Part shown: piece after piece, positions 26,413 through 45,389 of the stretch
Position numbering within the stretch: position 1 is the stretch's first letter
How the letters are laid out: each line of letters starts with the position of its first letter
Assembly: GCF_029892845.1 (NCBI RefSeq)
Contig: NZ_JARXVT010000006.1
Span: 1-64,000, forward strand
Direction of reading: 5' to 3'
Length of the DNA stretch: 64,000 nucleotides
From: Aurantimicrobium minutum
Lineage (GTDB): Bacteria; Actinomycetota; Actinomycetes; Actinomycetales; Microbacteriaceae
Notes under the pieces: generated by a model
Told to the model about the DNA's origin: nothing
The model's input: only the letters and a program-made list of their open reading frames with translations
The model's database searches: none
Position numbers and translations under genes: made by a program

Positions 26413-26421
26413 TTCTCCTTC

Positions 26422-28675: not shown

Positions 28676-28924
28676 ATGCCCACCATCGTCGTCGAGGTAA
28701 TGCCCAAGGCTGAAATTCTTGACCCCCAGGGCAAGGCAGTCGCTGGTGCGCTTACCCGCCTTGGTCACAACCAGTTCTCCGGTGTTCGCATCGGCAAGCG
28801 CTTCGAGCTCACCGTTGACGGCCCCGTCACTGCTGAGACTCTCGCAGCAGCCAAGACCATCGCAGAGGACATCCTCTCGAACTCGGTCATCGAAGATGTC
28901 GTCAGCATCTCCGAGGCCAAGTAA
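28676..28924 (+). CDS. purS: FGAM synthetase subunit PurS
   Basis: An 82-residue subunit of the three-part formylglycinamidine ribonucleotide synthetase. The start is the ATG at 28676 (MPTIVVEVMPKAEILDPQG), 45 bases after kynU; an upstream TTG is unlikely. LDPQGKAV and SGVRIGKRFEL are the family marks. PurS bridges PurQ and PurL for ammonia transfer. Its stop overlaps purQ (TAATG). Confidence 0.95.
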   Translation: MPTIVVEVMPKAEILDPQGKAVAGALTRLGHNQFSGVRIGKRFELTVDGPVTAETLAAAKTIAEDILSNSVIEDVVSISEAK

Positions 28925-29625
28925 TGCGCGTCGGAGTCATCACCTTCCCCGGCTCACTTGATGAGCGTGACGCCCAGCGTGCGGTGAAGCTCGCGGGTGG
29001 AACACCTGTTGCTCTCTGGCACGGTGCACACGACCTCGAAGGCGTTGAAGCCATCATTCTTCCCGGTGGTTTTAGCTACGGCGACTACCTGCGTGCAGGT
29101 TCTATTGCCAGCCACGCTCCCATCATGGCTGAGGTCATTGATGCAGCTCACAAGGGCATGCCTGTCCTGGGTATTTGTAACGGCTTCCAGATGCTTGCTG
29201 AAGCTCGCTTGGTTCCTGGCGCTCACGGCCGTAATGACTGTGGCACTTTTGTTCGCCGCGATCAGAAACTGATTGTGGAAAACAACAACACCGCGTGGAC
29301 CACAGACTTTGCCCAGGGTGAAGAGATCATCATTCCGCTGAAAAATGCAGATGGCCGTTTCGTTGCTAATGCAGACACCATCAAGCGCATTGAAGACAAC
29401 GGTCAGGTCACCTTCCGCTACGTCGGCATGAACCCCAACGGTTCACTCGATGACATTGCGGGTGTTTCTAACGAAGCGGGCAACGTCGTGGGGCTGATGC
29501 CTCACCCCGAGCACGCAGTTGAGCCCGGTTTCGGTCCCGACACTGCTCAGGCCATGCGTTCTGGTCTTGACGGCCTCAAGTTCTTCACCTCTGTCATTCA
29601 GAGCACCATCCTCTCCAAGGCATAA
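28924..29625 (+). CDS. purQ: FGAM synthetase glutaminase subunit PurQ
   Basis: A 233-residue class I glutamine amidotransferase. The nucleophile Cys is in VLGICNGFQ and the catalytic His/Glu in MPHPEHAVE; IILPGGFSYGDYLRAG is typical of PurQ. It supplies ammonia from glutamine to PurL. Coupled to purS and 5 bases before the DUF3817 gene. Confidence 0.97.
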   Translation: MRVGVITFPGSLDERDAQRAVKLAGGTPVALWHGAHDLEGVEAIILPGGFSYGDYLRAGSIASHAPIMAEVIDAAHKGMPVLGICNGFQMLAEARLVPGAHGRNDCGTFVRRDQKLIVENNNTAWTTDFAQGEEIIIPLKNADGRFVANADTIKRIEDNGQVTFRYVGMNPNGSLDDIAGVSNEAGNVVGLMPHPEHAVEPGFGPDTAQAMRSGLDGLKFFTSVIQSTILSKA

Positions 29626-29630
29626 GCGCC

Positions 29631-30113
29631 ATGAGCACATCTACCAAGTCAGGTTTCACTCCTCGCAAGCTCTACTTTGTGCTGGCCATTGCAGAAGCCT
29701 GCACCTGGACCTTGCTCATCACCGGGCTGATCCTTCGCGCAACTACAGGCATTGACCAGACCCTGTTCACCACCATCGGTGGTCTGCACGGTTTGGTGTT
29801 CATTAGCTATGGTGCAACCTCGATCTTGGTTGCATTCAACCAACGTTGGGGTTTCTGGCTGGGTCTACTCGCGGTGATCACCGCGATACTCCCCTATGCC
29901 ACTATTCCTTTTGAGCTGGTTCAGGCCAAGCGAGGAGCACTCGAAGGCCCATGGCGTACTAAGGCAACTGATGACCCACGTGACAAGAAGGCATTGGACC
30001 GACTGTTCCGCTGGTTCCTTGCTCGCCCAGTGCTGCTGATCCTCGTCATTGTGATGGCGATTGTTGCCGTCTTCTCCACCCTGCTCATCCTTGGTCCTCC
30101 TGGAGGACGCTAA
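29631..30113 (+). CDS. DUF3817 membrane protein
   Basis: A 160-residue protein with three N-terminal membrane helices forming a DUF3817 domain (KLYFVLAIAEACTWTLLI, GLHGLVFISYGA, WGFWLGLLAVITAILPYATI in turn) and a fourth helix near the C terminus. Function unknown. Its place between purQ and purL, with tight spacing, suggests cotranscription with purine synthesis genes, an arrangement seen in other actinobacteria. Confidence 0.8.
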   Translation: MSTSTKSGFTPRKLYFVLAIAEACTWTLLITGLILRATTGIDQTLFTTIGGLHGLVFISYGATSILVAFNQRWGFWLGLLAVITAILPYATIPFELVQAKRGALEGPWRTKATDDPRDKKALDRLFRWFLARPVLLILVIVMAIVAVFSTLLILGPPGGR

Positions 30114-30164
30114 AGCCATGGGCTCACACACTTTCCACATCACCCACAACGAAGGGACCGACGC

Positions 30165-32456
30165 GTGAGCACCCACGTCGCCGACACCGTAGACAACGCC
30201 ATCGCAACCCCAGACAAGGTTCAGCCCTATGGCGCCTTGGGACTCAAGGATGACGAGTACGCAGAGATTCGCAAGATCCTCGGCCGCCGCCCCACCTCAG
30301 GTGAGCTGGCGATGTACTCCGTGATGTGGAGTGAGCACTGCTCGTACAAATCTTCAAAGATCTACCTTCGTCAGTTTGGCCAGAAGGTCAGCGAAAAGAT
30401 GAAGGAAAAGCTCATGGTTGGCATGGGCGAGAACGCCGGTGTTGTCGACGTCGGCGAGGGCTGGGCTGTCACCTTCAAGGTGGAGAGCCACAACCACCCC
30501 AGCTACATTGAGCCTTTCCAGGGCGCTGCCACCGGTGTGGGTGGAATCGTCCGTGACATCATCTCGATGGGTGCACGACCCGTTGCTGTGATGGACCAGC
30601 TCCGCTTTGGCGCAATCGACCACCCTGACACTCCTCGTGTTCTGCACGGTGTTGTTGGCGGAATCAGCTTCTACGGCAACTGCCTTGGCCTTCCCAACAT
30701 TGGTGGCGAGACCTACTTCGACTCCTGCTACCAAGGCAACCCTCTGGTGAACGCACTCTCTGTGGGTGTGCTCCGCCACGAAGACCTTCACCTGGCTAAT
30801 GCTTCAGGTGTGGGCAACAAGATTGTTCTGTTCGGGGCGCGCACCGGTGGCGACGGCATCGGTGGCGCATCGATCCTCGCGTCGGACTCATTCGACTCCA
30901 CTGGCCCCACCAAGCGACCTGCTGTCCAGGTGGGTGACCCCTTCGCTGAGAAGGTACTCATTGAGTGCTGCCTCGAGCTTTACCGCGAAGGCCTGGTTGA
31001 AGGTATTCAGGACCTTGGTGCAGCGGGAATCTCTTGCGCCACCAGTGAGCTTGCTTCTAACGGTGACGGCGGTATGTTCGTTGAGCTCGATCACGTTCTG
31101 CTGCGCGACCCCACCCTCACCGCTGAGGAAATCCTCATGTCGGAGAGCCAGGAGCGCATGATGGCTGTGGTCAAGCCTGAGCTGCTGGATCAGTTCATGG
31201 CTGTCGTGAACAAGTGGGATGTGGAAACCAGTGTTCTCGGTGAAGTCACCGACACCGGTCGTCTCGTGATCCACCACGGAGGCGAAGAGATCGTGAACGT
31301 CGACCCCCGCACCGTCGCAATCGACGGTCCTGTTTATGAGCGTCCCGTGGCATACCCCACCTGGATTGATGCTCTGCAGGCAGACTCAGCTGACAAGCTG
31401 GCTCGCCCCCAGAGTGGTGCAGAACTCAAGGACCAGTTCCTCTCCCTCGTTGCCAGCCCTAACCTGGCAGACAAGTCCCTCATCACCACCCAGTATGACT
31501 ACTTCGTCATGGGTAACACGGCACTCAGCTTCCCTGACGATGCCGGCATGATCCGCGTGGATGAAGAATCCGGTCTCGGTTTCGCTATCGCCACCGACGC
31601 CAACGGTCGTTACTGCCAGCTTGACCCCTACCAGGGTGCTCGCTTGGCTCTGGCTGAGGCTTACCGCAACGTGGCAGTATCAGGTGCTGTTCCTGCAGCG
31701 GTCACTGACTGCCTCAACTTCGGTTCTCCTGAGAACCCAGAAGTGATGTGGCAGTTCAAGCGTGCTGTTGAAGGTCTTGCTGATGGTTGCTTGGAACTCG
31801 AGATCCCCGTCACCGGTGGAAACGTCTCCTTCTATAACCAGACCGGTGACGCTCCCATCCACCCCACCCCTGTTGTGGGCGTGCTGGGTGTTATCGATGA
31901 CGTTGCTCGTCGCATTCCTTCTTCCTGGCAGGACGAGGGCAACAACATCTACCTCCTCGGCTACACCCGCACCGAACTTGATGGTTCGGCTTGGGCTGGC
32001 ACCATTCACAACCACTTAGGTGGCGTTCCTCCCGTTGTTGACTTGGCCCAAGAAAAGGAACTGGCAGACCTGCTTCAGGGTGCTGCAATCGAGAGCCTTA
32101 TTCTTTCTGCTCACGACCTCAGTGATGGTGGTCTGGGACAGGCACTGGCTGAGTCCGTCATGCGCTTTGGCGTGGGTGCTCGCGTCTGGCTCGATGAAAT
32201 CATCGAGCGTGACGGCGTAGATGCTGCAACCGCCCTTTTTTCTGAGTCAACCGGTCGCGTCATCGTCTCTGTTCCTCGCGAAGATGACGTGCGCTTCTTG
32301 GGACTCTGCGAAGCTCGCAACTACCCTGTCCTGCGCATCGGTGTTACCGACCAGGGTGGAGAAGATGCCAAGCTCGACGTTCAGGGCTTATTCGAGGTTT
32401 CTGTTGCTGAGATTCGTCAGCGCAGCAACGAGACTCTGCCCAAGTACTTCGGTTAA
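30165..32456 (+). CDS. purL: FGAM synthetase large subunit PurL
   Basis: A 763-residue small-type PurL (no fused glutaminase or PurS). It converts FGAR to FGAM with ATP and PurQ-derived ammonia. [13 protein letters not shown] near the N terminus, [16 protein letters not shown] and [14 protein letters not shown] near 650 are diagnostic. GTG start. The last 93 or so codons have a diverged second copy at 38830-39111 beyond the surface-protein island, so this gene marks the left end of an insertion and its 3' part may itself be of foreign origin. Confidence 0.97.
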
Positions 32457-32485
32457 CTCTTAGATCACTGAGTTCTCTTGGCATG

Positions 32486-32504
32486 CAGGGTTATCCCTGT
32501 GTTT
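32486..32504 (+). terminator. Weak terminator after purL
   Basis: CAGGG (32486-32490) and CCCTG (32495-32499) form a short stem with TTAT loop, followed by TGTTTT. The rest of the 141-base gap before the surface protein gene contains a second hairpin, CTAGGA with TCCTAG around 32538-32555, and a GGGC/GCCC stem near 32565; no known riboswitch pattern was recognised. Confidence 0.4.
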
Positions 32505-32597
32505 TGCTGGCGCCTCCACGCACATCCTTAAGGTCTCTAGGACTCGCTCCTAGCCTGAAATCCTGGGCTTAATGCCCCGGTTTAGGGAGCGTGTTCG

Positions 32598-35500
32598 TTG
32601 CGTCGATTGTTCTTAGTTTTCACCGCATTCACACTCGTCATTTTTGGCGGCGTAGTCATGACACCGACGGCTGCACACGCCACTCCTCCCACCTGTACGT
32701 CTACCCCAACGACGTGGGCAGACCTGCAGATTGCAATGATGAACACGGGCACCAGCGCTTCGCCAAACGTCGTATGCCTTGGGGCAAATCTTGTGGGTCC
32801 CGCAGATCAAAATCTGCGGCTCGGACACTTACAGTATGTAGTGCTTGATCTCAGTGGGTACTCGTTAGCTATTTCGGGTGGGACGGCCGGTGCCGGTATC
32901 GACACCAACGTCGATGGTCACCTTACGATTCAAGACTCTAACCCGGGAAGCAATACTTTAACCGCAACCGGCGGAAATGGCGCAGCAGGGATCGGCGGCG
33001 GAAATGGCGGAAATGGCGGAACCATCACCATCAACTCAGGAACCATCATCGCAACCGGCGCACCCAGCGCAACCAGCGGCGCAGGGATCGGCGGCGGAAA
33101 TGGCGGAAATGGCGGAATGATCACCATCAACGGTGGCAATATCTCGGTAACAGGAGGGGGTTATGCTGCTGGAATTGGCGGGGGAAATGGCGGGGGAAAT
33201 GGCGGAACCATCACCATCAACTCAGGAAACATCACCTCAACTGGCGGATTCGGCGCAGCAGGGGTCGGCGGGGGTAATGGCGGAAATGGCGGAATGATCA
33301 CCATCAACGGTGGAACAATCAGCGCTACTGGCGGTAACCTCGGAGCAGGGATCGGCGGCGGGTGGCTGGGAGATGGCGGAACAATCACCATCAACTCAGG
33401 AAACATCACCTCAACTGGCGGATTCGGCGCAGCAGGGGTCGGCGGGGGTAATAGCGGAAATGGCGGAACCATCACCATCAACGGTGGAACAATCAGCGCT
33501 ACTAGCGGTAACAGCGGCGCAGGGATCGGCGGCGGCGGCGGCGGGACAATCACCATCAGTGGTGGAACAATCAGCGCTACTGGCGGTTTCAGCGGCGCAG
33601 GGATCGGCGGCAGTGCTGGTGAAAATGGCGGAACCATCACCATCAGCGGGGGAACAATCAGCGCTACCGGCGGTGATTTCGGAGCAGGGATCGGCGGCGG
33701 AATTGATGGCGATGGTGGCATCATCGCCATCGGCGGGGGAAATGTTTCCGCAATGGGCGGGTTCTCTGGGGCTGGAATCGGCGGCGGCGGCGGTAACGGT
33801 AACGGCGGCAGCATCACTGTTACCGCTGGAAGCGTCGTTGCCACAGGAGGTGCCGATGCAGCAGGAATCGGCGGCGGAAATGGCGGAGATGGCGGAAATG
33901 TGACCCTTAGTGGTGGACGTATTCAAGCTATTAGGTGGGTGCGTTCATCAGCTGAGATCGGGAGTGGCGCCGGCGGTTCGCAGGGGGGAAGTCTCACTGT
34001 TACCACTGTCAGCCCAATCTCATGGATCAATCTCGATACAAGTGGTACATCTGGACACGCGCCCTCTTCAACAAGTACGACACCGTCGTCAAGTGCCTCC
34101 GCGGCATCGGTAACCAGAACTGAGGGTTACGACTACGTGACTTTTACTTTCAACTACGCGGTGAGCTTCAATACCGGTGGCGGCAGTAGTGTCATCCAGC
34201 AAGATGTGGCATATCGCCAGCGCCCCACCCTACCGGCGCCACCGACACGCGCTGGCTACGCCATGGATACCTGGCACACAGATTCAGCTTCTGGACCCAC
34301 ATACAACTTCAGCTCTGGCACGACCATAACCGCGGCAACCACGCTCTATGCCAGCTGGGGCATGCTCGATACGACCTGTAGCAGCGAGAACAAACCAACG
34401 TCTTGGGCAGAGCTCATCGGGTCGGTTTCGTCGGCAACAAGTAGTAACACTTCGTCTGCAAATCCGAAAGTGGTCTGCCTCGGGGCTATCATCTCTGTGG
34501 CCAACATGCACCTCACTCTGTCCTCCGGCGCATACGTGACGCTTGATTTGAACGGATATTCTCTCTTCGTCACCGACGCGGATGACAACCACGCCGCAAT
34601 TGAAAATACGGGGGCCTATCTCACGATTCAGGATTCACATCCCGGTAGCAATGTATTAATTGTTGTTGGAGGCGCAAACGGTGCTGGGATTGGTGGCGGG
34701 AATGGCGCCACCGGGGGTTCCCTCACTATCAACTCCGGAAACGTCACCACCAGAGGCGGTGCTTTTGCCGCAGGAATCGGCGGCGGAGACGGTGGTATGG
34801 GTGGAGCAACCACAATTAACGGTGGGCAGGTAAATGTCATTGCGGGCTATAGCGGGGCAGGAATTGGCGGCGGCAACGGCGGAGACGGTGGAGCAACCAC
34901 AATTAACGATGGTGTCATCACCGTAACGGCAGCTTGGTACGGTGCTGGAATTGGTGGCGGTGCAGGCTACACCGTATCTGCCAACCGAGGAAACGGTGGT
35001 GTGACCACTATTAACGGCGGCGTCACAACTGCCGTGGGAGGTTCTCGCGCCGCTGGAATCGGCGGGGGGAACAAAGGTCGTGGTGGCATCACCGTAATCA
35101 ACAATGGGTTTGTTTCTGCAACGGCTGGCGCATATGGTGCCGGTATCGGCGGAGGAGAGAACGGGCGAGGTGAGTACATCACTATCAATGGCGGAATCGT
35201 AAATGCCATGGGTGGTGAATTCGGCGCTGGCATCGGCGATGGTGCCATGCCGAGTGCTGGTTTGATCGCTCTGGAGATAAACGGGGGTGCCGTTACTGCA
35301 ACAGGTGGCCCGTATGGAGCTGGAATCGGCTCTGGGTATGCGGCCACAACGTGCGGCAACATTTCGATTAGTGCTGGAAATGTGACAGCGACCGGTGGCC
35401 AGGTTGCGGCTGGAATCGGCGCTGGATTCCTTGGAACCGGCTGTAACGTAACCTTGAGCGGAGGAAAAACCCAGGCGATCGCAACGCCAGGTATTGTCTC

Positions 35501-36407
35501 TGGCGTGCCCGTTAGCGGTGCGGCGATTGGTTCAGGTTACCTACCCCGTTCTTACTCAGACGCTGGAACTCTCACTGTGGTCACTTTGACTTCAAGCCCC
35601 TTCACCCCCATTCCAAATGGGAGCGGCACGACTGGTGGCTTTGCGCCCACAACGTCAAGTTCCACAGCTACTAATGGGGCACCCGCTCGCTCGGTCACAA
35701 AAACAGAAGAAAATGGCACCGTCACATTCACCTTCAACTACGACGTGAGTTTCAACAGCGGTAGCGGCAGTAGTGTCACCCAACAAGAGGTCGGATACGG
35801 TTCGCGACCCGATCGTCCAACTGATCCGACGTTGGCGGGTTATGCCATGGATACGTGGCACACGGGTTCCGCATCCGGCCCCACCTACGACTTCAGTACC
35901 GGCTCAAACATCACAGCGGCAACGACCCTCTACGCCAGCTGGAATGCCATCAATGCAGCACCTCTGAGCATCAACGCAGTCACTCGCGCCGTGAACATAA
36001 CGCAAACCGACCGGCAAGTCGGCTCGTCGTGGAACGTTAAGGTTCACTCGACTCCGGTGACACTGGGTTCAGGTGCGACCGATGGGTCCGCCGCTGTGAT
36101 CTTCAGCGGCACCATTCCTGCAGTGGCAGCCGGAGTGCACCGTGTGGAAGTGAGCTCGACAGCATCGAACAGCGTCACCGAGATTCAAAAACTCTGGTTC
36201 GTATCTGACCAATCCGACACAATAATTGGGGTCTATACGACAGAGGCCGAAGCAAACGCTGCATGGGATGCATTGCAGCCCTCGGTCGCACGCTTGTCGA
36301 ATACCGGTCTAGCCACTGCGCGAGTCTTCACGACCCTCACCGCCGGAGCGCTGCTTCTGCTCGTGGGTATCGCTATAGTCATCTGGCGTCGTCGCAGGAC
36401 ATACTGA
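32598..36407 (+). CDS. Giant Gly-rich beta-helix surface protein with sortase-like anchor
   Basis: A 1269-residue exported protein. TTG start after GGGAG; signal peptide to about residue 28 (AAHA). Two similar halves follow. Each starts with a Cys-containing cap (PTTWADLQ / PTSWAELI, later VVCLGA and LDLSGYSL / LDLNGYSL), then about 12 and 10 turns of a 25-29 residue repeat built on GAGIGGGNGG-GGTITIN-ISATGG, and ends in an InlB/Listeria-Bacteroides-type module (about 510-590 and 1034-1116: VTFTFNY, RAGYAMDTWHT, ATTLYASW). After a C-terminal region come LSNTG (1233-1237), a membrane helix and RRRR, a sortase-like sorting signal. Probably a wall-anchored adhesin or receptor; ligand unknown. 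No sortase gene is in the window. Confidence 0.8.
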   Translation: MRRLFLVFTAFTLVIFGGVVMTPTAAHATPPTCTSTPTTWADLQIAMMNTGTSASPNVVCLGANLVGPADQNLRLGHLQYVVLDLSGYSLAISGGTAGAGIDTNVDGHLTIQDSNPGSNTLTATGGNGAAGIGGGNGGNGGTITINSGTIIATGAPSATSGAGIGGGNGGNGGMITINGGNISVTGGGYAAGIGGGNGGGNGGTITINSGNITSTGGFGAAGVGGGNGGNGGMITINGGTISATGGNLGAGIGGGWLGDGGTITINSGNITSTGGFGAAGVGGGNSGNGGTITINGGTISATSGNSGAGIGGGGGGTITISGGTISATGGFSGAGIGGSAGENGGTITISGGTISATGGDFGAGIGGGIDGDGGIIAIGGGNVSAMGGFSGAGIGGGGGNGNGGSITVTAGSVVATGGADAAGIGGGNGGDGGNVTLSGGRIQAIRWVRSSAEIGSGAGGSQGGSLTVTTVSPISWINLDTSGTSGHAPSSTSTTPSSSASAASVTRTEGYDYVTFTFNYAVSFNTGGGSSVIQQDVAYRQRPTLPAPPTRAGYAMDTWHTDSASGPTYNFSSGTTITAATTLYASWGMLDTTCSSENKPTSWAELIGSVSSATSSNTSSANPKVVCLGAIISVANMHLTLSSGAYVTLDLNGYSLFVTDADDNHAAIENTGAYLTIQDSHPGSNVLIVVGGANGAGIGGGNGATGGSLTINSGNVTTRGGAFAAGIGGGDGGMGGATTINGGQVNVIAGYSGAGIGGGNGGDGGATTINDGVITVTAAWYGAGIGGGAGYTVSANRGNGGVTTINGGVTTAVGGSRAAGIGGGNKGRGGITVINNGFVSATAGAYGAGIGGGENGRGEYITINGGIVNAMGGEFGAGIGDGAMPSAGLIALEINGGAVTATGGPYGAGIGSGYAATTCGNISISAGNVTATGGQVAAGIGAGFLGTGCNVTLSGGKTQAIATPGIVSGVPVSGAAIGSGYLPRSYSDAGTLTVVTLTSSPFTPIPNGSGTTGGFAPTTSSSTATNGAPARSVTKTEENGTVTFTFNYDVSFNSGSGSSVTQQEVGYGSRPDRPTDPTLAGYAMDTWHTGSASGPTYDFSTGSNITAATTLYASWNAINAAPLSINAVTRAVNITQTDRQVGSSWNVKVHSTPVTLGSGATDGSAAVIFSGTIPAVAAGVHRVEVSSTASNSVTEIQKLWFVSDQSDTIIGVYTTEAEANAAWDALQPSVARLSNTGLATARVFTTLTAGALLLLVGIAIVIWRRRRTY
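33208..33509 (+). repeat. 174-bp in-frame tandem duplication inside the surface protein gene
   Basis: The stretch starting near 33208 recurs starting near 33382, an offset of 174 bp (58 codons, two beta-helix turns). About 128 bp, 33208-33335 against 33382-33509, are nearly identical, while neighbouring repeat units agree only at protein level. This points to a recent slippage or recombination event that kept the reading frame. Coordinates are approximate at the ends. Confidence 0.75.
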
Positions 36408-36411
36408 AACA

Positions 36412-37044
36412 GTGAACATTAGAGTGCTCGTTGTTGAAGACGACGACTTCACGCGCCTGAGCATTGCCGCGGCTCTTCGCGAGGAGCACTTCGACGTCTT
36501 TGACACTGCACTGGCCAGCGCCGCTGCCACCAAGGCCGAAGACTGGATGCCCACCGCCGCCGTGCTCGATCTACACCTGGGCCCCGGCCCTACCGGTATC
36601 GACCTGGCCAAAGCTCTGAGGCGGAACGACCCCAGCATCGGAATCGTCATCCTGACCAGTTACGACGATCCCCGCATGCTCAGCGCCACCATGTCGGAGC
36701 CCCCGGCTGGGACCCAGTACATCACCAAGCGTTCCGTGACACACATTGATGACCTCGTGCGAGCCCTTGCAATCGCTGTGCGCTCACATACCGTCAAACC
36801 TGCGCATGCTAATCAGCCGAAACTAGCCAACCTTACTGATACGCAACATGACGTGCTGAGGTTGATCGCGGAGGGTCACACTAACCAGCAAATTGCTAGG
36901 ATTCGCCAGACAACCGTCAAGACGGTCGAATCACTAATTGCACGACTAGTTAAAGCGCTGGAGATTCCCTCCTCGGCAGATGCGAACCAGCGCGTCATGC
37001 TCGCGCGCGCCTATTTCGAAGCCAGTGGTTTAAGTGGCCCGTAG
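36412..37044 (+). CDS. NarL/LuxR-family response regulator
   Basis: A 210-residue two-domain regulator. Receiver: VVEDDDF with the acidic pocket, phosphoacceptor Asp near 53 in AAVLDLHLG, Thr/Ser in ILTSYDD and Lys in YITKRSV. C-terminal LuxR-type helix-turn-helix: LTDTQHDVLRLIAEGHTNQQ then TVKTVESLIARL. GTG start 4 bases after the surface protein stop; it overlaps the kinase gene by 11 bases. Likely controls the surface protein gene or its own operon; no binding site can be assigned. Confidence 0.88.
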   Translation: MNIRVLVVEDDDFTRLSIAAALREEHFDVFDTALASAAATKAEDWMPTAAVLDLHLGPGPTGIDLAKALRRNDPSIGIVILTSYDDPRMLSATMSEPPAGTQYITKRSVTHIDDLVRALAIAVRSHTVKPAHANQPKLANLTDTQHDVLRLIAEGHTNQQIARIRQTTVKTVESLIARLVKALEIPSSADANQRVMLARAYFEASGLSGP

Positions 37045-38737
37045 CACGACTAGATTTTCGCGTCTGAGCGACGAGGCCGGAGGTCGGTGGTTTAACTACC
37101 TTCCGGCCTACCTGTGGGTCGGACCCATCTGGGTCGTGGCATCGGTTTTTGCGACGCCGGGGCTGACCTCGCTTAGCGAGTTTGCCTTGATGGCACTCGC
37201 CAATTCGGCTGGAGTTCTCTCAGCCGTGGGATTGATGGCTCTGTCGAACGCGAGCGTGTTTCGAAACAGTCAGGCGAAGCCAATCCCGCTCTTGCTCGTC
37301 AGTGCGTTTGGAGCTGCTGTCGGTGCCATTAAAGCCGTGGTTACCACTCTCGTCGCCGTCAGCATCACACACGGGCCCCTCGATGGCATCGGCCCGCGAA
37401 TCGCCATTTCTGCCGTACTGGGGGCATGGCTCATTCCCGCCATCTCAGTGTTGTATGCGACGCTCGCCCGCTATGAACGCGAGCGGGATGCCCTGGCTCG
37501 CGAGCTCGTGCTCCGAAAGTTTCGACCCGCCCTCGGTGGCTCTTCAAAGAACCGCTCCTACGACCAAGACATTTCGTCGTTCGTTGAACTCACCCGAACA
37601 TCGGTCTCCCACGCCCGCAACCCGCTCGAACTCAACCGAACACTTAACACCATCATCGACAATGAGCTACGGCCGCTGAGTCGAACTCTTTCTGAGCAAG
37701 TTCGACAGTCGTTGCCCAGCTTCCGCATCCCCGACCTTATTCGCATTGTCTGGAGGGATTACCGTTTCACCCCGGTAGGGACAACCGTTGCCTACGTCAT
37801 CACGTTCATCGCTCCCCAGCTCTGGTACGCAGGGATATTAAACGGACTACTCCGTTTGCTCGTTCAAGCGGTGATCGTATTTGGCATCCTCTGGCTCGCA
37901 CAGTTCCTCCCGAATCGGGGCGGTACCTATGGCGTGATGGCCTTCGCGCTGGTGAACGGCTTTCTTGTTTTTGCTCTTGACGCCATAAGCATTCTTATCT
38001 TCGGCCCTCTGCCCGACTACCCGCGCTGGGGAGCGGTGACCTTCTTGCTTCTCTTTTTTGTCTTGTCTGGCCTGATCCTAGGGACTATTCGTGCAGCCCA
38101 AAATGAGGAGAAGGATGTTCGTGCGCAACTGACCGAGCTCTCAGAACAGACCGCGCAGGCATATTCGATGTCGGCGCAGCAACAATTCGAGAATCGCGAA
38201 TTGGCTCACTACTTGCATAGTCGTGTGCAGAATGGGATGCTCTCAGTGGCTCTGCGCCTGGGGGCGGACGGGGCGCCGGCAGACATCTCACCTGCTCAGG
38301 ATGAGCTATACGCCATTCTCGATGAAGTACTGACAGTCTCATCTCAGCGAGAGTTGTCGGACATTTCGACCGAACTGCAATCAATTCAAGGCCTATGGAA
38401 AGGTCTCGCTGAGGTCCGCTTTTCGGTAGACCCATCAATCGAACGATTACTCAACAGAGACCGCAATCTTCGCAAGACTGCGGTACTGGTAGTCGAGGAA
38501 GGCACGACCAACGCCGTGCGTCACGGTTCGGCAACAGAAATAAACATCTCAATCGGATCGGGTGCCACGACGACTGACGTTTCGATTCACTGCATAGACA
38601 ACGGGAAAGGTCCGGTTGGAAACCATTCAGGGTTGGGAACGACCTTGTTTGATTCAACAGCAAACTCGTGGAGCCTCACGCGACGGGCAGTGAACCAGAC
38701 CGAACTCGAGGTTCTTTTAGAGAGCTCGGCAAGTTAG
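37034..38737 (+). CDS. Polytopic sensor histidine kinase, HisKA_3-like
   Basis: A 567-residue membrane kinase paired with the preceding regulator. Roughly four membrane helices (about 18-145), a cytoplasmic helical stretch (about 150-245), then three or four more helices (about 250-355). The dimerisation region ELAHYLHSRVQNGML has His near 394 where HisKA_3 kinases have the phosphoacceptor, but the following acid is Ser. The ATPase domain keeps the N box VVEEGTTNAVRHG and G box DNGKGPVG. GTG start. Its TAG stop overlaps the stop of a convergent chorismate mutase remnant. Ligand unknown; a cell-envelope or membrane stimulus would fit so many helices. Confidence 0.8.
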   Translation: MARSTTRFSRLSDEAGGRWFNYLPAYLWVGPIWVVASVFATPGLTSLSEFALMALANSAGVLSAVGLMALSNASVFRNSQAKPIPLLLVSAFGAAVGAIKAVVTTLVAVSITHGPLDGIGPRIAISAVLGAWLIPAISVLYATLARYERERDALARELVLRKFRPALGGSSKNRSYDQDISSFVELTRTSVSHARNPLELNRTLNTIIDNELRPLSRTLSEQVRQSLPSFRIPDLIRIVWRDYRFTPVGTTVAYVITFIAPQLWYAGILNGLLRLLVQAVIVFGILWLAQFLPNRGGTYGVMAFALVNGFLVFALDAISILIFGPLPDYPRWGAVTFLLLFFVLSGLILGTIRAAQNEEKDVRAQLTELSEQTAQAYSMSAQQQFENRELAHYLHSRVQNGMLSVALRLGADGAPADISPAQDELYAILDEVLTVSSQRELSDISTELQSIQGLWKGLAEVRFSVDPSIERLLNRDRNLRKTAVLVVEEGTTNAVRHGSATEINISIGSGATTTDVSIHCIDNGKGPVGNHSGLGTTLFDSTANSWSLTRRAVNQTELEVLLESSAS

Positions 38738-38822
38738 GCTTTATCACCGTTAGCGATGGCCTGGTGGTGCTTAATGACCTCCCGGACGACAAAGTGGAAC
38801 CACTTCTCGGCAAAGTCAGGGT
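38734..38822 (-). pseudogene. Chorismate mutase 3'-end remnant
   Basis: Read on the minus strand, this fragment encodes FAEKWFHFVVREVIKHH and a short tail ending at TAA (complement of 38734-38736). The intact chorismate mutase at 39884-40186 ends with FAEKWFHFVVEEVIHHH, so the match is clear; the fragment differs enough, especially in its longer C-terminal tail, to be from another strain or species. It has no start and is cut off around 38822, where purL homology begins. It preserves the gene order of the donor: sensor kinase and chorismate mutase tail to tail. Confidence 0.82.
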
Positions 38823-38829
38823 AAAAGAT

Positions 38830-39111
38830 GGCGCACGCATCTGGCTCGATGAAATCATCGAGCGTGACGGCGTAGACGCTGCCACTGCGCTGTTCTCTGA
38901 GTCCACCGGTCGTGTGATCGTCTCAATTCCTCGAGAAGATGACGTGCGCTTCTTGGGACTCTGTGAAGCCCGCAACTACCCCGTGCTCCGTATCGGTGTG
39001 ACCGATCTGGGAGGGGACGACGCTAAGCTTGACGTACAGGGTCTGTTCGAGGTTTCTGTCGCTGAGATTCGTCAGCGTAGCAACGAGACACTGCCTCAGT
39101 ACTTCGGCTAA
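38830..39111 (+). pseudogene. Second, diverged copy of the purL 3' end
   Basis: About 93 codons matching the last part of purL ([18 protein letters not shown] through YFG and stop, at 32176-32456). By hand I count about 40 differences in 277 bases, nearly all in third positions, with about six amino acid changes. It is fused behind the chorismate mutase remnant, has no start or ATP site and cannot make a working PurL. Purifying-type divergence shows that both copies evolved as real purL genes before being brought together. The native neighbour on this side (small gene at 39130) starts 18 bases later. Confidence 0.9.
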
Positions 39112-39129
39112 CAGCGGTTCGGGGGAACC

Positions 39130-39330
39130 ATGGATCCATTTATTGCCATTCTGATTGGTGTCTTTTGGGCAGCCATTATTGTGGGGCTCGTGGTGCGCTT
39201 CATCAGAGCGAAGAAGGGGCAGCGCCTCAAGGCTGTTGCTGAGCCGCTTGTTGCGGCTGCTGACTCTTACCAGGAGAACCTCATTGGTAAGACAGGAACG
39301 GCGCAGCTCAAGGACTTAGACCAAAACTAA
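39130..39330 (+). CDS. Small single-helix membrane protein
   Basis: A 66-residue protein: one hydrophobic helix (about 4-24, FIAILIGVFWAAIIVGLVV), a basic cluster RFIRAKKGQRLK and a polar tail. GTTCGGGGGAACC just upstream forms a small hairpin that includes the purine-rich ribosome-binding region. No family recognised. Probably the gene that originally followed purL in this lineage. Confidence 0.65.
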   Translation: MDPFIAILIGVFWAAIIVGLVVRFIRAKKGQRLKAVAEPLVAAADSYQENLIGKTGTAQLKDLDQN

Positions 39331-39400
39331 GTACAGGCTTAACGAGCTTCGAGCAGGTCCCATTGCAGGGGCCCACCCGAAGAATTTGAGTTTCTCAGAT

Positions 39401-39427
39401 AAATAACCCTGTTGGCAAGGGTTATTT
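39401..39427. terminator. Bidirectional terminator between the small membrane gene and the HtaA gene
   Basis: AAATAACCCT (39401-39410) pairs perfectly with AGGGTTATTT (39418-39427), loop GTTGGCA. It overlaps the stop codon of the minus-strand HtaA gene and follows the plus-strand gene by 70 bases; A/T-rich arms supply U-tracts on both strands. Confidence 0.8.
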
Positions 39428-39880
39428 AGCAACCAGAGTCACTGTGCTGAGTTCTTGCCCCACACTGTATTGCTCACCCATCACGCCACGGCCTTCTGCC
39501 GTCAATGCAGCTGTCAGCATGAGTGGGTGTGATCCAGGAATGACGTTCACATTCACAAAGGGAACATGAACCTCCGGAGAGAGAATTCCTCCCTGCGCAA
39601 TAGACAACGTTCCATGACCTGAAGTGAGCTCAATACGAGGGTCCTTGATGGTGATGTTCATCATGCCCCAGTGGCCGGTGAAGTGAGCAGTTCCCAGGAA
39701 CTGTAGCTCACCGGTGTGAGTATCAGCGTTGAAGTCTGAAGCAACCTCGTTGAGTGCGAAAGTGAAACCGGACTCTGTTCTGGTCGCAGGCTCGAGAGCT
39801 TCCACGGTGCCATCTTCTAAACCAGAGATGTAGGCAATGAGGCTGTCTTTGACAGACCAGTGCAGTTCAAAGTCGCTCAT
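39422..39880 (-). CDS. Single-domain HtaA-like protein
   Basis: A 152-residue protein matching the HtaA domain pattern: FELHWSVKDSLIAYISG at the start, FTFALNEVASDFNADTHTGELQFLGT, then FTGHWGMMNITIKDPRIEL and HGTLSI (all in order). Corynebacterial HtaA/HtaB use this domain to bind haem at the cell surface, but this one has no signal peptide or anchor and lies 3 bases after chorismate mutase in one operon. Either the domain works in the cytoplasm here or its role is unrelated to haem uptake. Confidence 0.75.
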   Translation of the reverse strand: MSDFELHWSVKDSLIAYISGLEDGTVEALEPATRTESGFTFALNEVASDFNADTHTGELQFLGTAHFTGHWGMMNITIKDPRIELTSGHGTLSIAQGGILSPEVHVPFVNVNVIPGSHPLMLTAALTAEGRGVMGEQYSVGQELSTVTLVAK

Positions 39881-39883
39881 GGT

Positions 39884-40186
39884 TTAGCCCCGAGCTTGTT
39901 CGTGGTGGTGAATGACCTCTTCCACCACGAAGTGGAACCACTTCTCCGCGAAGGTAGGGTCGAGGTTGGCCTCTTCCGCCAGTGCGCGCAGGCGCGCAAC
40001 CTGGCGGGCCTCACGCTCGGGGTCTGAGGGGGGAAGATCGTTGGTGGCCTTGAGCTTGCCCACCTTCTGGGTGAACTTGAAACGCTCAGCGAGCATGTGA
40101 ATGAGAGCTGCATCGATGTTGTCGATGCTCTCGCGAATACCTGCGAGCTCTTGGGCAACCTCAGGGGTCATCTCGTTCTGCGCCAT
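39884..40186 (-). CDS. Chorismate mutase (AroQ type)
   Basis: A 100-residue all-helical chorismate mutase (chorismate to prephenate, for Phe and Tyr). IRESIDNIDAALIHMLAERF holds the N-terminal Arg and the helix 1 pattern, KVGKLKA the Lys, and FAEKWFHFVVEEVI the last helix. Normal length for the stand-alone AroQ form. A truncated relative lies at 38734-38822. It heads a two-gene unit with the HtaA gene. Confidence 0.9.
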   Translation of the reverse strand: MAQNEMTPEVAQELAGIRESIDNIDAALIHMLAERFKFTQKVGKLKATNDLPPSDPEREARQVARLRALAEEANLDPTFAEKWFHFVVEEVIHHHEQARG

Positions 40187-40210
40187 GCTTTCAGGTTAGC
40201 GCAGGAGGGA

Positions 40211-41125
40211 TTAGTTCTTGACCTGCCTGCGCATAATCAGAACACCCAGGATGACAATCGCCCCACCTGTGGGCTCATACCAGTGCAAGGTTTCACCCAA
40301 AAAGACAACGCCCAACATGACACCCACGATGGGCATGACATAGGTCACGGAAGAAGCACGAGTGGGGCCCCATGAATCCAACACATCGTTGAACCAGAGA
40401 TAGGCCAGCCCTGTTCCACCAAAGCCAATAACGCTAATGGCGATGATGGTGGTCCAGTCGATAGTGACAGGTCCCGTGGCAAGGAAGGGGGTCAGCAACA
40501 AGATGAAGATCGCTGCTGCGCCCACTTCAATAATGGAGATGGACTTCGAGGAGACACCTCGAGGGAACACGTATTTCTTGAGGTATGTTCCGGAGAATCC
40601 ATACATCACCGCTGCACCAAGTGCTGCAATCTGGCCCCAGAAGCTGCCGCCTAAGTCAGTAATGGTCCAGGGCGCAATCACAACGACAAGACCTGCAAGT
40701 CCCACAAGTACACCAACTGCTTGATTGCGGTTGAAGTTCTCCACGCGCAATACATAGACCGCAATGATCGCGGTCATGATCGGGGTGAGGCCGTTATAGA
40801 TTGTGGCAACAGCAGAAGTGATGTATTGCTCTGCCCAGGGGAAGAAGATGAAGGGGATTCCAATACCAATGACACCTGCGAAGGCGATGTGTCCCCAGAG
40901 CTTGATGTCTTTGGGAAGTTGCTCACGGCTAATCAGCCAGAACACCAACATGAAAATTCCACCGGCAACAACGCGCGACCACGCGATCTGCCCCCAACTC
41001 AGGGTGTCCAGAGCGATCTTGATAAAGAAGAAGCTCGATCCCCACAACAGCGCTAAGGCAATGAACTTGAACACGACAACGGTGGGCGCCTGGCCAGGCT
41101 TGTGGGCAACAGAAGTGGAGGTCAT
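40211..41125 (-). CDS. EamA/DMT-family transporter
   Basis: A 304-residue protein with ten predicted helices in two EamA halves; LLWGSSFFFIKIAL and LGEGTL-like LGETLHWYEPTGGAIVILGVLI are typical ends of the halves. Probably a metabolite exporter. Located between chorismate mutase and purA without a partner regulator, so substrate is unknown. Confidence 0.85.
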   Translation of the reverse strand: MTSTSVAHKPGQAPTVVVFKFIALALLWGSSFFFIKIALDTLSWGQIAWSRVVAGGIFMLVFWLISREQLPKDIKLWGHIAFAGVIGIGIPFIFFPWAEQYITSAVATIYNGLTPIMTAIIAVYVLRVENFNRNQAVGVLVGLAGLVVVIAPWTITDLGGSFWGQIAALGAAVMYGFSGTYLKKYVFPRGVSSKSISIIEVGAAAIFILLLTPFLATGPVTIDWTTIIAISVIGFGGTGLAYLWFNDVLDSWGPTRASSVTYVMPIVGVMLGVVFLGETLHWYEPTGGAIVILGVLIMRRQVKN

Positions 41126-41209
41126 AACTTCTTCAGCCTAGACCTGACAAGGTTCATTAGGGCATGAACGAACGAGTCAATCTGACCAGCAGGTCAGACG
41201 AGAGAGGTT

Positions 41210-42496
41210 TTAGCCAACGAGGTCGTGCTGAACGATGATTGCATCGCGAGCAGGACCAACACCGATAGCGGAGAATCGAGCACCGCTCATTGCTTCTAGT
41301 GCAGTGACGTAGTCCTGAGCGTTCTTGGGAAGATCGCTGAACTTACGTGCACCGGTGATGTCCTCAGTCCAACCGGGGAAGTATTCCAGGATGGGCTTGG
41401 CGTGGTGGAAGTCGCTCTGGTTCACGGGAACCTCATCGTGACGAACACCGTCGACGTCATAGGCAACACAAACCGGAATCTGCTCGAGGCCAGTAAGAAC
41501 GTCAAGCTTGGTGACGACGAAGTCGGTCACACCATTGATGCGTGCGGTGTAGCGAGCTATCGGGGCGTCATACCAACCACAGCGACGGGGACGTCCAGTG
41601 GTGGTGCCGAACTCGAAGCCTTTGGCACGCAGGTATTCACCGTCTTCATCGAAGAGCTCGGTGGGGAACGGACCTGCGCCCACGCGGGTTGTGTAGGCCT
41701 TGATGACCGCAATCACGCGCTCAATCTTGTTAGGACCAATTCCCGAACCGGTCGATGCACCACCTGCAGTGGCGTTCGACGAGGTGACGAAAGGATAGGT
41801 TCCGTGGTCTATGTCGAGCATGGTTGCCTGGCCACCCTCGAACAGCACAACCTTGTCTGCTTCGAGAGCCTGGTTCAGTTCGAGTGCAGTGTCAGCCACC
41901 ATGGGTGCCAGACGCTCACGGTAGGAAAGTAGTTCTTCAATCACGGCATCAGCCGAGATGGCGCGACGGTTATAGATCTTGGCCAGCAAGTGGTTCTTGA
42001 TCTCGAGCGCTGCTTCGACCTTCTGGCGCAGGATGCCTTCGTCGAAGATGTCTTGGATGCGGATACCCACGCGGTTGATCTTGTCGGCATAGGTGGGACC
42101 AATGCCGCGGCCGGTGGTGCCGATCTGACGCTTGCCGAGGAAGCGCTCGGTGACCTTGTCCAAGGTGCGGTGGTAGTCGGTGATGACGTGAGCGTTTGCG
42201 CTCACGCGCAGCTTCGAGGTGTCGATGCCGCGTGAGTTCAGTGCGTCGAGCTCAGCGAAAAGAACTGAGATGTCGATGACCACACCGTTGGAGATCACGG
42301 GGGTAACGCCGGGAGTCAAAATGCCGGAGGGAAGTAAGTGGAGGGCATACTTCTCGTCGCCAATAACGACGGTGTGACCAGCGTTGTTACCGCCGTTGAA
42401 CTTCACAACGTAGTCGATACGTTCAGCAAGAAGGTCGGTAGCCTTACCCTTACCTTCGTCGCCCCACTGGGCACCAATCAGAACGATTGCTGGCAT
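41210..42496 (-). CDS. purA: Adenylosuccinate synthetase PurA
   Basis: A 428-residue GTP-dependent enzyme joining IMP and aspartate, first step toward AMP. N-terminal [15 protein letters not shown] (P-loop with catalytic Asp), [19 protein letters not shown] and [11 protein letters not shown] are diagnostic. Length standard. Its own transcription unit, fitting regulation separate from IMP synthesis. Confidence 0.98.
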
Positions 42497-42596
42497 GACG
42501 ATATCCCCTCGTCGTTAGAACGGCCTGTGCAACTGCGACCTGCCAGTAATTCATTCTACCGGCTAAATAACGCCTCTTTCTTGCGGTTACTTCAGG

Positions 42597-43217
42597 CTAA
42601 GTAGTGGCAAGTAGCACAACGTCAATGGCCTTGCGCTCTTCGCCACCCGAGACAAAGAAACGATCCCGCAGCGTCAGCGTGTGCACGTTTAATCCGAGGG
42701 CATCACAGGCGGAGCGGAGCTCATCCTGTGTCGGGTTGAGCTCTGGGCTGGGCGGACCACCGAAGCCGTGTTCAAGGTTTTCACGTGCGTGCCACACACC
42801 AAAGAGCGTGCCGCCCGAGCGCAGGCTCTGCGCTGCCGTGGCAATCGCAGCAACGAGGTCTGCAGCAGGAATCTGAAGATAGGCCATCACGGCCAGATCA
42901 ACGGGCTTGGTCACGCAGGACTCAGGGTTGGTGGCATCAACTGCCGTGCCGGTGCAGAGTTCTGTCAGCCCCTCGTGCTCAGCGCGCTGCAAGAACTTGC
43001 CCACGGCCACAGCGGAGAAGTCGGAGTTCTCCACATGCCAACCGCGGCTGGCAAACCAGAGAGCATTGCGGCCTTCACCGCCACCCAGGTCCAGCATCTT
43101 GCCAGCAGGAATATCGGAGAGGTACTCAACGACAAACTCGTTGGGCTCCAACGACCAGACCATCTCTGCCTCGGCATAACGCTTATCCCAGGCTTCAGGA
43201 GAGTTCCGAGTAGTCAT
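42597..43217 (-). CDS. Class I SAM-dependent methyltransferase (TehB-like)
   Basis: A 206-residue methyltransferase. Motif I LDLGGGEGRNALWFASRGW binds SAM; the start WDKRYAEAEMVWSLEPN and this motif resemble TehB/thiopurine-type enzymes. Follows the TrmH-like gene by 9 bases in a pyrE operon. Methyl acceptor unknown. Confidence 0.85.
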   Translation of the reverse strand: MTTRNSPEAWDKRYAEAEMVWSLEPNEFVVEYLSDIPAGKMLDLGGGEGRNALWFASRGWHVENSDFSAVAVGKFLQRAEHEGLTELCTGTAVDATNPESCVTKPVDLAVMAYLQIPAADLVAAIATAAQSLRSGGTLFGVWHARENLEHGFGGPPSPELNPTQDELRSACDALGLNVHTLTLRDRFFVSGGEERKAIDVVLLATT

Positions 43218-43226
43218 GGTGCCCCT

Positions 43227-43862
43227 TTAGAACGTCACGTGCTGCATGACCCATGAGTGCATGGTCACAGCAGCTGCCGCACTGGCATTGATGGAGCGGG
43301 TTGAACCAAACTGCGTGATTTCAATCACTGCTTCTGCAGCTTCGATGGCTTCGGGAGACAGCCCGGGGCCTTCTTGGCCAAACAAGAACAAGCAACGCTC
43401 GGGCAAGTCAAAGGTTTCGATTTTCACGCAGCCAGGAACATTGTCAATGGCGAGGATAGGCATGTTCTCTGCCTTCGCCCACTCGACCAAGTCAGCAACT
43501 GTGTCGTGGTGAACCACGTGTTGGTAGCGGTCGGTGACCATCGCACCGCGCTTGTTCCAGCGACGGCGTCCCACGATGTGGACAGTGTCTGCACCAAAAG
43601 CATTGGCTGAGCGCACGATTGAACCGATGTTCATATCGTGCTGCCAGTTCTCAATGGCGACATGGAACGGGTGACGCTTCTCGTCGAGATCCGCGACAAT
43701 CGCTTCCATGGTCCAGTAGCGATAGCGGTCGATAACGTTACGCGTATCGCCCTTTTCTAGGAGCTCAGGGTCGAACCAGGGGTCTTCCGGGAGTTCACCA
43801 ATCCACGGACCAACACCGGAGGTGCTCAGTTCGTGGGTGGGTGACTCTGGAAGGTCAGTCAC
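43227..43862 (-). CDS. SpoU/TrmH-family RNA 2'-O-methyltransferase
   Basis: A 211-residue SPOUT enzyme. The three motifs of the knotted SAM site are present: NIGSIVRSANAFGAD, LFGQEGPGLS and RSINASAAAAV. It would methylate a ribose 2'-OH of tRNA or rRNA; the target base cannot be told from sequence. A 50-residue N-terminal extension precedes the fold. 2 bases after pyrE, same operon. Confidence 0.9.
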   Translation of the reverse strand: MTDLPESPTHELSTSGVGPWIGELPEDPWFDPELLEKGDTRNVIDRYRYWTMEAIVADLDEKRHPFHVAIENWQHDMNIGSIVRSANAFGADTVHIVGRRRWNKRGAMVTDRYQHVVHHDTVADLVEWAKAENMPILAIDNVPGCVKIETFDLPERCLFLFGQEGPGLSPEAIEAAEAVIEITQFGSTRSINASAAAAVTMHSWVMQHVTF

Positions 43863-43864
43863 GA

Positions 43865-44419
43865 CTACTGAGGTTCGAGACCGAGGTCTTCGAGACCAAT
43901 GGCATAGAAGTAGGGGTAGCCAGCAGTCTCAATGCGCTGACGAGCATCTGTCGCACGGTCGACGACCACAGCAACACCAGCAATCTCGGCGCCAACCTTC
44001 TCGAGAGCTTCAATAGCTTTCAGTGGTGAGCCACCGGTTGTCGAGGTGTCTTCAAGAACAACGACGCGCTTGCCCACCAGGTCGGGTCCTTCAACCTGAC
44101 GACCCCGGCCGTGATCCTTAGGCTCCTTGCGCACAACAAAGGCGTCATAGGTCAGGCCCTGGGCAGCGCCCTGGTGAAGCACTGCGGTTGCGATGGGGTC
44201 TGCGCCCATGGTGAGACCGCCCACAGCGTCCACATCGGGAATCTGCGCCAGCACGTCCAACATGACCTGTCCGATCAGTGGGGCAACGCGGTGATCCAAA
44301 GAAATCTTGCGCATGTCCACGTAATACGTGGCCTTCTTGCCGCTGGTGAGCGTGAAGTCACCGTGGAAGACGGCTTCTTCTTTAATGAAGTTGATCAGCT
44401 GTTCGCGTGCAGAAGTCAT
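43865..44419 (-). CDS. pyrE: Orotate phosphoribosyltransferase PyrE
   Basis: A 184-residue enzyme adding ribose-5-phosphate from PRPP to orotate (pyrimidine step 5). The PRPP motif VVLEDTSTTGGSPLKA and the Lys-rich loop VVRKEPKDHGRGRQVEG are present. First gene of a pyrE, rRNA/tRNA methyltransferase, SAM methyltransferase operon. Confidence 0.96.
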   Translation of the reverse strand: MTSAREQLINFIKEEAVFHGDFTLTSGKKATYYVDMRKISLDHRVAPLIGQVMLDVLAQIPDVDAVGGLTMGADPIATAVLHQGAAQGLTYDAFVVRKEPKDHGRGRQVEGPDLVGKRVVVLEDTSTTGGSPLKAIEALEKVGAEIAGVAVVVDRATDARQRIETAGYPYFYAIGLEDLGLEPQ

Positions 44420-44455
44420 GACTTCAGTTTATCGGCCCCGAGAGAGCCGATATAT

Positions 44456-45376
44456 CTAGTGGGCGAGAGGCTCAAGAGGAACGATGTCCTCATCTTCGGG
44501 ACCGGGGGTTCCTGCGATGTGTTCTTTCCGTCCCCGCGTGGGCATCTCCACGATCACCATGGCGGCGACCATAAATGCCCCGCCGATGATGGTCTTCAGC
44601 GCCAGAACTTCTTGTCCCACACCAACCGAAACAACTGCTGTGAAGACGACCTCGAGGGTCAAGATGATGGCAACTCTAGAGGGCTCCATCTGGGCTTGCG
44701 CCCAGGTCTGAACAAAAAAGCCAATAACGGTGGCAAAGATCGCAGTGAATAGCACTGCCATCCAGACGTCAACCGTGGGTGGGCCTTGATAGCCATCGGG
44801 CAGGGCACCGATCCAACAGACCACTGCGACGAAGAGCAGCTGGACAAATGTCAGCGCATAGGAATCAAGTCCTGAACTAAAGCGCCCCAAGCCCACGATG
44901 TGCAGGGCATAGAGAACAGCACAGATGATTCCCCAGATCTGACCAACCTCGATAGAGACACCCGTGATGGAGATAAGACCCAGACCAATGAGTGCCAGCA
45001 CGGCACCAATTGCTACCTTGATTCCCACCTTGCGGCGGAAGATCAACCAACCCAGCACGGGGGTCAACACAACGTAGGTTCCGGTGAGGAATCCCGTGAT
45101 GGCCGCGGTGGTCATCTCGAGTGCAATGGTCTGGGTGACGTAGGCCAGGCCCAGCACAACTCCCAGCACAGCTCCCACAGCAAGCATCTTGCCCTTGAGT
45201 GCAAGGATCACCTTGGGTTTGATCACCAACATGATTGCGGCAGCAATAGTGAAGCGAATAGCGAGGAAGTCGAAGAAGGGCTGCTGCTCAATTGCCGGCT
45301 TCATCACGACAAAGGCAACGCCCCACATCGCAGCCACTGAAACCAGTGACCACAATGCGAGGCGAGATGTCTTCAT
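44456..45376 (-). CDS. EamA/DMT-family transporter
   Basis: A 306-residue protein with ten helices in two EamA domains (AAMWGVAFVVMKPAIEQQ at the start, GQEVLALKTIIGGAFMVAAMVIVE at the end, in pieces), and a short acidic cytoplasmic tail. Third member of this superfamily in the window. It lies 36 bases upstream of pyrE and may share its transcript. Substrate unknown. Confidence 0.85.
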   Translation of the reverse strand: MKTSRLALWSLVSVAAMWGVAFVVMKPAIEQQPFFDFLAIRFTIAAAIMLVIKPKVILALKGKMLAVGAVLGVVLGLAYVTQTIALEMTTAAITGFLTGTYVVLTPVLGWLIFRRKVGIKVAIGAVLALIGLGLISITGVSIEVGQIWGIICAVLYALHIVGLGRFSSGLDSYALTFVQLLFVAVVCWIGALPDGYQGPPTVDVWMAVLFTAIFATVIGFFVQTWAQAQMEPSRVAIILTLEVVFTAVVSVGVGQEVLALKTIIGGAFMVAAMVIVEMPTRGRKEHIAGTPGPEDEDIVPLEPLAH

Positions 45377-45389
45377 CCCTCCAGCCTAG

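Follow-up and report, generated by a model that had tools for sequence, protein, structure and literature searches.

A second purL 3' end beyond an added gene block in Aurantimicrobium minutum, the likely scar of one-sided DNA import

Introduction

The 3' end of purL, an essential purine-biosynthesis gene, is present twice in Aurantimicrobium minutum, once on the intact gene and once, in diverged form, on the far side of a block of other genes, where it abuts a fragment of a chorismate mutase gene. This arrangement raises the question of how a core gene can come to have two different ends, and whether the genes between them were brought in from elsewhere. The window analysed here is the whole stretch of 64,000 nucleotides formed by positions 1 to 64,000 of contig NZ_JARXVT010000006.1, in a genome of 1.76 Mb assembled in 12 contigs. 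An earlier note, made from the letters of the window, had read the arrangement as a scar of imported DNA, and several of its claims are taken up below.

Results and Discussion

Organization of the purL locus

The intact purL gene (30165..32456, plus strand) encodes 763 aa with the Pfam families AIRS, AIRS_C and FGAR-AT_linker, and its product is 97–99% identical to those of seven congeners. Its final 282 nt (32175-32456, plus strand) constitute the left copy of the repeat. They are followed by an inserted block of 6,373 bp (32457..38829), which in a block alignment has no counterpart here in the congeneric genomes G006 and G001. The second purL 3' end, designated purL' or the stub, lies beyond the block (38830..39111, plus strand) and comprises 93 codons and a stop without a frameshift. 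The right flank then consists of a 66-aa ORF (39130..39330, plus strand), 87% identical over 61 aa to the ORF directly 3' of purL in G006, a gene for an HtaA-domain protein (39422..39880, minus strand; PF04213; 89% in G006) and an intact type II chorismate mutase gene (39884..40186, minus strand; PF01817, E 9.6e-23; 97% in G001 and 98% in G006). The joint and the order of these parts are known here from the assembled sequence. The stub is also open in frame from a GTG inside the preceding kinase gene, giving a putative ORF of 147 aa (38668-39111).

The block carries three cargo genes, all on the plus strand. The first (32598..36407) encodes a repeat-rich surface protein of 1269 aa with PF18889 and PF09479, that is, beta-helix and Listeria-Bacteroides repeats; its C-terminal match to the sorting-signal family NF058670 reaches 17.6 bits, below the cut-off of 32. 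Many imperfect repeats, spaced most often by 87 bp, occupy positions 32961-35425 of this gene. The second (36412..37044) encodes a NarL/LuxR-type response regulator (PF00072, PF00196), and the third (37034..38737) a probable membrane histidine kinase that matches no Pfam family and matches NF008649 (UhpB) at E 0.007, far below the cut-off. The kinase is presumably the partner of the response regulator, and relatives of the kinase in the genus adjoin a response regulator as well. In GC content the block (57.3%) hardly differs from its flanks (55.5 and 56.4%), which counts against an import. No integrase family above the cut-off was detected in the three cargo genes, for the response regulator among the 25 of 58 matches listed in one search, and the sole recombinase-like match was a sub-cut-off resolvase HTH in the DNA-binding part of the response regulator. 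When a donor of the block was sought through the kinase in the 397 other genomes of the family, one relative was recovered at E <= 1e-70, in G192 at 36% identity, and no genome with the gene order proposed below for the donor was found.

A chorismate mutase fragment at a non-homologous joint

Between the kinase gene and the stub lies the 3' end of a second chorismate mutase gene, designated CM' (38734..38826, minus strand), which was recognized by self-alignment and by its translated C terminus. Positions 38764-38832 are 77% identical to positions 39902-39970 of the intact gene. The minus-strand frame reads FYPDFAEKWFHFVVREVIKHHQAIANGDKA, followed by a stop codon that ends at 38734, and the corresponding end of the intact chorismate mutase reads FAEKWFHFVVEEVIHHHEQARG. 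The C terminus of CM', VVREVIKHHQAIANGDKA, is unlike those of the genus, which are VVEEVIHHHEQARG or VVEEVIHHHVQARG. In a chorismate mutase protein search of the same genome, CM' scored E 7.3e-6 and is thus not a chance match; the other matches were the intact gene and one weak hit at E 0.06, and the remainder of the CM' parent gene was not found. A DNA search of 398 genomes of the family gave, as its six best non-self matches, stretches of 59–70 nt at 80–85% identity in other genera, which are too short for a donor to be named. The stop codons of the kinase gene and CM' overlap tail to tail, which suggests that the two genes were neighbours in the donor. At about 38823-38830, CM' meets purL' without homology, as judged against purL and chorismate mutase of congeners, so that an illegitimate joint is present.

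We consider it very improbable that this joint is a chimera of the assembly or of a mixed culture. The genome is listed with 0% contamination and 99.96% completeness, neither the rest of the CM' parent gene nor a second purL remainder was found elsewhere in it, and similar stubs occur in three other genomes. Since the two purL ends differ by 14%, the collapse of an exact repeat offers no explanation.

Two purL ends from different lineages

Positions 32175-32457 and 38830-39112 are 86% identical. The two ends differ at 40 of 282 nt, with 4, 1 and 35 differences at codon positions 1, 2 and 3, respectively, and 34 of the 39 differing codons are synonymous. As a PurL protein the stub scores E 3.9e-54, which is not chance, and a PurL protein search of the same genome (E <= 0.001) matched two places only, the intact gene and the stub; no third purL piece was found at this threshold. 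With G001 as the reference, 20 changes are private to the stub, distributed 3/0/17 over the three codon positions (P 2.8e-6 under neutrality), and those private to the left end are distributed 1/1/15. Because private changes lie mostly at third positions in both, each end must have evolved in a working purL gene until recently. Neutral decay of the stub after a duplication is not what these changes describe, as 3 of the 20 private to it lie outside third positions. Judged by their substitutions, the two ends are purL alleles from different lineages rather than products of an old local duplication.

These results bear out most of what the earlier note had read from the letters: a chorismate mutase tail on the minus strand at 38734-38822, a diverged purL C terminus from about 38830, intact parent genes elsewhere in the window, and an origin of the purL copies in different strains. 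Its count of about 40 differences in 277 bases, mostly at third positions, was reproduced closely. It had also proposed that the import would be contradicted if the two copies were each other's closest relatives, and on this point the tree does not discriminate. The best tree of the 279-nt purL ends places the stub with G001 at a support of 71/76, which is not significant; uniting the two window copies in a clade costs 4.1 log units (p-AU 0.29), and uniting the left end with G001 costs 6.4 (p-AU 0.17). Tails of 279 nt are too short for either placement to be significant, and no topology is rejected.

The same tree bears on a competing account, in which the block was inserted by non-homologous joining at both ends, the purL end being duplicated locally in the process, in tandem or as a target site, and the intact purL gene was later replaced by the allele of another strain. 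We give this sequence of events a small but real chance. The clade that it predicts, that of both window copies, is among those not rejected, and allele exchange is seen elsewhere in the window, for example at 26400-28800. The account does require two events, and without the later replacement it fails on the 17 of 20 stub-private changes that lie at third positions.

Which of the two ends is the resident one is indicated less directly. Their identity to G001 is about equal (left end 90.1%, stub 89.0%). Among the eight genomes compared, the residues DLGGDD of the stub recur in G001 alone; the left end reads DQGGED. This hints at the stub as the resident allele. In a tree of its first 1,830 nt, purL groups with G001 (support 96/98), and identity of the window to G001 falls from 96.5% at 31600-32000 to 86.8% at 32000-32400. 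The terminal region of purL also varies between other congeners. Measured against the G001-G006 differences, the left purL end shows a weak surplus of differences to G001 (P no lower than 0.016, reached at one of the 13 split points tried). A split of the two tails by a single crossover gave no significant signal in the predicted direction against seven congeners (permutation p at least 0.40); positional differences in the opposite direction gave MWU p 0.049 (G003) and 0.060 (G006), uncorrected for seven comparisons.

The locus without the block

G006 has the 66-aa ORF, the HtaA gene and chorismate mutase immediately after purL. Window positions 23796-32456 and 38829-50783 each align to G006 in one piece, 50783 being the end of the G006 stretch used in the alignment, and the two aligned pieces overlap by 283 bp in G006. 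This overlap means that the locus was changed by pure addition and duplication, with nothing resident lost relative to G006; a deletion of resident DNA of a size similar to the insert is absent by the same comparison. The insert is flanked by direct repeats of a homologous segment, namely the purL ends.

Across eight genomes of the genus, the interval between purL and chorismate mutase varies in length and content, being shortest in G001 (about 100 bp) and longest in G005 (about 21 kb). In G002, G003 and G007 it holds an ORF that by eye resembles an aldo/keto reductase, and in G004 a different ORF. The interval of G005 (L195:1666-15001 and L196:1-8265) resembles, over some 21 kb, an aromatic-degradation cluster, with ORFs named by eye as IclR-type regulators and dioxygenase-, hydroxylase- and P450-like proteins. 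A mosaic of alleles is visible upstream of purL in the window, at 26400-28800, where identity to G001 drops to about 71% (28000-28400) and identity to G006 rises to 94% (28400-28800); it spans a kynureninase-like ORF (27381-28631, named by eye).

The event may also be viewed from the other side. The resident chromosome would then have carried purL, the block and the CM-like gene, and the imported DNA would have brought purL', the small ORF, HtaA and chorismate mutase. Such a mirror image is rather improbable in our estimate, and, as it concerns the same type of event, its chance overlaps with that of the explanation preferred below. It would agree with an identity to G001 that is lowered on both sides of the block, and with the equal distance of stub and left tail from G001. 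The right-hand chorismate mutase, at 97–98% to G001 and G006, speaks against it, as does CM', which as a resident gene would be unusual in the genus.

A probable one-sided import at purL

A one-sided addition of genes at purL has left a real and legible scar here, and the import reading holds. The explanation that we consider likely is that a donor fragment was imported at purL by one-sided recombination, the block and the duplicated purL end being its scar. The fragment would have carried, in order, a purL 3' part, the surface protein, the response regulator, the histidine kinase and the end of a chorismate mutase gene. It would have entered an Aurantimicrobium cell, probably through natural transformation. 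One side would then have undergone homologous recombination within purL; the opposite end, which lay inside the donor chorismate mutase, would have been linked by a non-homologous joint to purL sequence some 280 nt short of the stop. In this way purL would have been kept intact, 6.4 kb added, and a duplicated purL 3' end left before the small ORF, HtaA and chorismate mutase. Homology at purL is the natural reading of the anchor; the crossover itself was not located.

The likeliest route would be that the donor fragment was joined end to end and then integrated through a single crossover at purL. Next in likelihood would be homology-facilitated illegitimate recombination of the classical kind, or a joint formed between sister chromosomes. 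The first route is favoured because resident DNA was duplicated, not lost. In the description of PMC3240628, homology-facilitated illegitimate recombination generally gives an insertion together with a deletion of similar size, with a microhomology of 3–10 bp in most cases. In the E. coli experiment described there, 56 of 60 selected clones gave the PCR product expected when the homologous segment is duplicated, and 4 of 60 were of the illegitimate kind; 14 sequenced clones had 109–950 bp duplicated, which was attributed to re-circularised DNA and a single crossover (PMC3240628). The 282-nt duplication found here lies inside this range, which also favours a single crossover of end-joined DNA. 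The likeness to the integration of re-circularised linear DNA in E. coli consists in the partial gene duplication and the non-homologous joint, although a laboratory plasmid and conjugation were involved there and a natural chromosome is involved here (PMC3240628).

The earlier note had named homology-facilitated illegitimate recombination as the mechanism. As far as the same source describes this process in Streptococcus, Acinetobacter and Pseudomonas, the locus shares with it one homologous side, one illegitimate joint and a foreign block added; resident DNA is generally deleted there and duplicated here (PMC3240628). Import, an added block and a non-homologous joint thus stand, and the 283-bp duplication departs from the classical type, of which the exact mechanism is probably a neighbour.

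Some features of the genome bear on the proposed steps. CM' is not genus-like and both purL ends are, so that a mixed donor or two steps would be needed. No Ku gene was found in the genome, and end joining would therefore need another route. A crossover inside the tail should have made reciprocal mosaics of the two purL ends; these were not detected, which likewise speaks against a single crossover there. ComEC is present, and as this family also matches in 10 of 14 control genomes it is weak evidence for transformation. A. photophilum is naturally transformable, importing linear DNA and recombining it (PMC11577799).

purL stubs in other genomes

A second match to the purL end was searched for in 398 genomes of the family, 386 of which had a match. 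Two matches were present in 4 of the 386 genomes (G000, G017, G230 and G383). G383 was discounted as a stub case, both of its pieces lying at contig ends. In a control with the end of purA, two matches occurred in 2 of 391 genomes (G198 and G399), and the idea of purL as a preferred site was dropped, given 2/391 against 4/386. Three relatives from two other genera (G017, G230 and G174) have purL stubs beyond other cargo; their sizes are 235 nt (95%) and 92 nt (87%) in G017, 240 nt (88%) in G230 and 69 nt (77%) in G174. The earlier note had called a scar of this kind rarely visible; the joint is indeed legible, and at least three more genomes with such stubs make it less of a rarity.

In G017 (L041:7917-14672), two stubs are stacked downstream of purL, each beyond different cargo, in the order purL, one gene of unknown family, the 92-nt stub, a gene pair and the 235-nt stub, with a type I restriction enzyme further out. 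One gene of the pair encodes a nucleotidyltransferase, and neither matched the defence library. The 235-nt stub encodes the same protein as the left end except at the junction edge, and 11 of its 235 nt differ, 8 of them at third positions. In G230 (L197:2570-12290), the genes after purL are Cas9, Cas1 and a short ORF, identified by eye, where Cas2 would be expected; then come a CRISPR array, the 240-nt stub, which begins about 20 nt after the last CRISPR repeat, and a Fic gene. In this genome 18 of the 26 mismatches of this stub are at third positions, and a frameshift is present. In G174, which belongs to the genus of G017, purL is followed by matches to Abi_2/PD-T4-5 and PD-T7-4 and by the decayed 69-nt stub, with genes for a MutH-like endonuclease and for a DNA methyltransferase further out. 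The defence roles are predicted from library matches. The loci of G230 and G174 were chosen because of, or as relatives of, known stub cases.

A self-comparison of 106 purL loci found such stubs in G017, G230 and G174 only, and short matches of 19–86 bp in other loci were taken as chance. No further purL stub was found in the window or in 13 loci compared later. Repeats of other C-terminal ends also occur among 1,272 ORFs of 119 loci, some of which overlap or share a genome; the set includes loci fetched for their stubs, and no enrichment is claimed. At L160:15364-17378, for instance, a copy of the last 120 bp of another gene, 98% identical, lies 0.9 kb downstream in the same orientation.

Islands at tRNA genes carry a replacement 3' end. 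A further candidate is therefore a site-specific island that used a target within the 3' end of purL and brought a replacement end along. Cargo between purL and a displaced purL end in four genomes would suit such an island, as would the similar lengths of the three longest stubs, 235–282 nt, for which P is about 0.002 if three starts fall uniformly along purL, a calculation made post hoc. The island is nevertheless already disfavoured, and we regard it as quite improbable: the three cargo genes gave no integrase family above the cut-off, the three longest stubs differ in where they start, at 281, 234 and 238 nt before the end, the repeat is 86–95% identical over 235–282 nt rather than a short exact core, and CM' at the joint is left unexplained.

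A bolder proposal, which we regard as doubtful, is that the 3' end of purL acts as an integrase-free docking site in small-genome planktonic Microbacteriaceae. Cassettes would carry a short purL end of their own, recombine, keep purL intact, push the old end downstream and stack in layers, and they could leave by recombination between purL ends. If this were true, the cassettes would comprise CRISPR-Cas9, abortive-infection-like genes and surface signalling, with restriction genes further out. Judged by titles and the openings of abstracts, none of the papers listed concerned purL as an insertion site.

Comparison with known systems and significance

The proposed import at purL resembles several known systems. 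In the T6SS orphan immunity arrays of Vibrio cholerae and in Rhs displaced 3' ends, successive one-sided additions at a conserved anchor leave displaced 3' ends behind, and the authors of the V. cholerae study propose a mechanism akin to homology-facilitated illegitimate recombination (PMC5361080). Unlike in those arrays, the anchor here is a purine-biosynthesis gene and the cargo consists of surface and signalling genes or likely anti-phage genes (PMC5361080). In the core defense hotspots of Pseudomonas aeruginosa, too, the cargo between core genes changes and no clear mobile element is present; transfer by homologous recombination at the flanks was suggested, a route after which those authors do not expect scars of mobile elements, whereas displaced ends of a core gene remain here (PMC10250203). 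Pneumococcal merodiploids demonstrate that transformation can create duplications, although about 100–900 kb lie between the repeats there and the one small case, of 3.3 kb, lacks repeats (PMC3784515).

How blocks of genes are swapped between core genes without obvious mobile elements is an open question, of which core defence hotspots are the prime example. At the locus described here the joint is legible, since a diverged second end of the anchor gene stands beside a fragment of a foreign-looking flanking gene. The host is a freshwater bacterium, and the stubs of its three relatives, in one of them stacked twice, lie beside likely anti-phage genes. Natural transformation of another Aurantimicrobium works in the laboratory, so that the proposed event would be directly testable.
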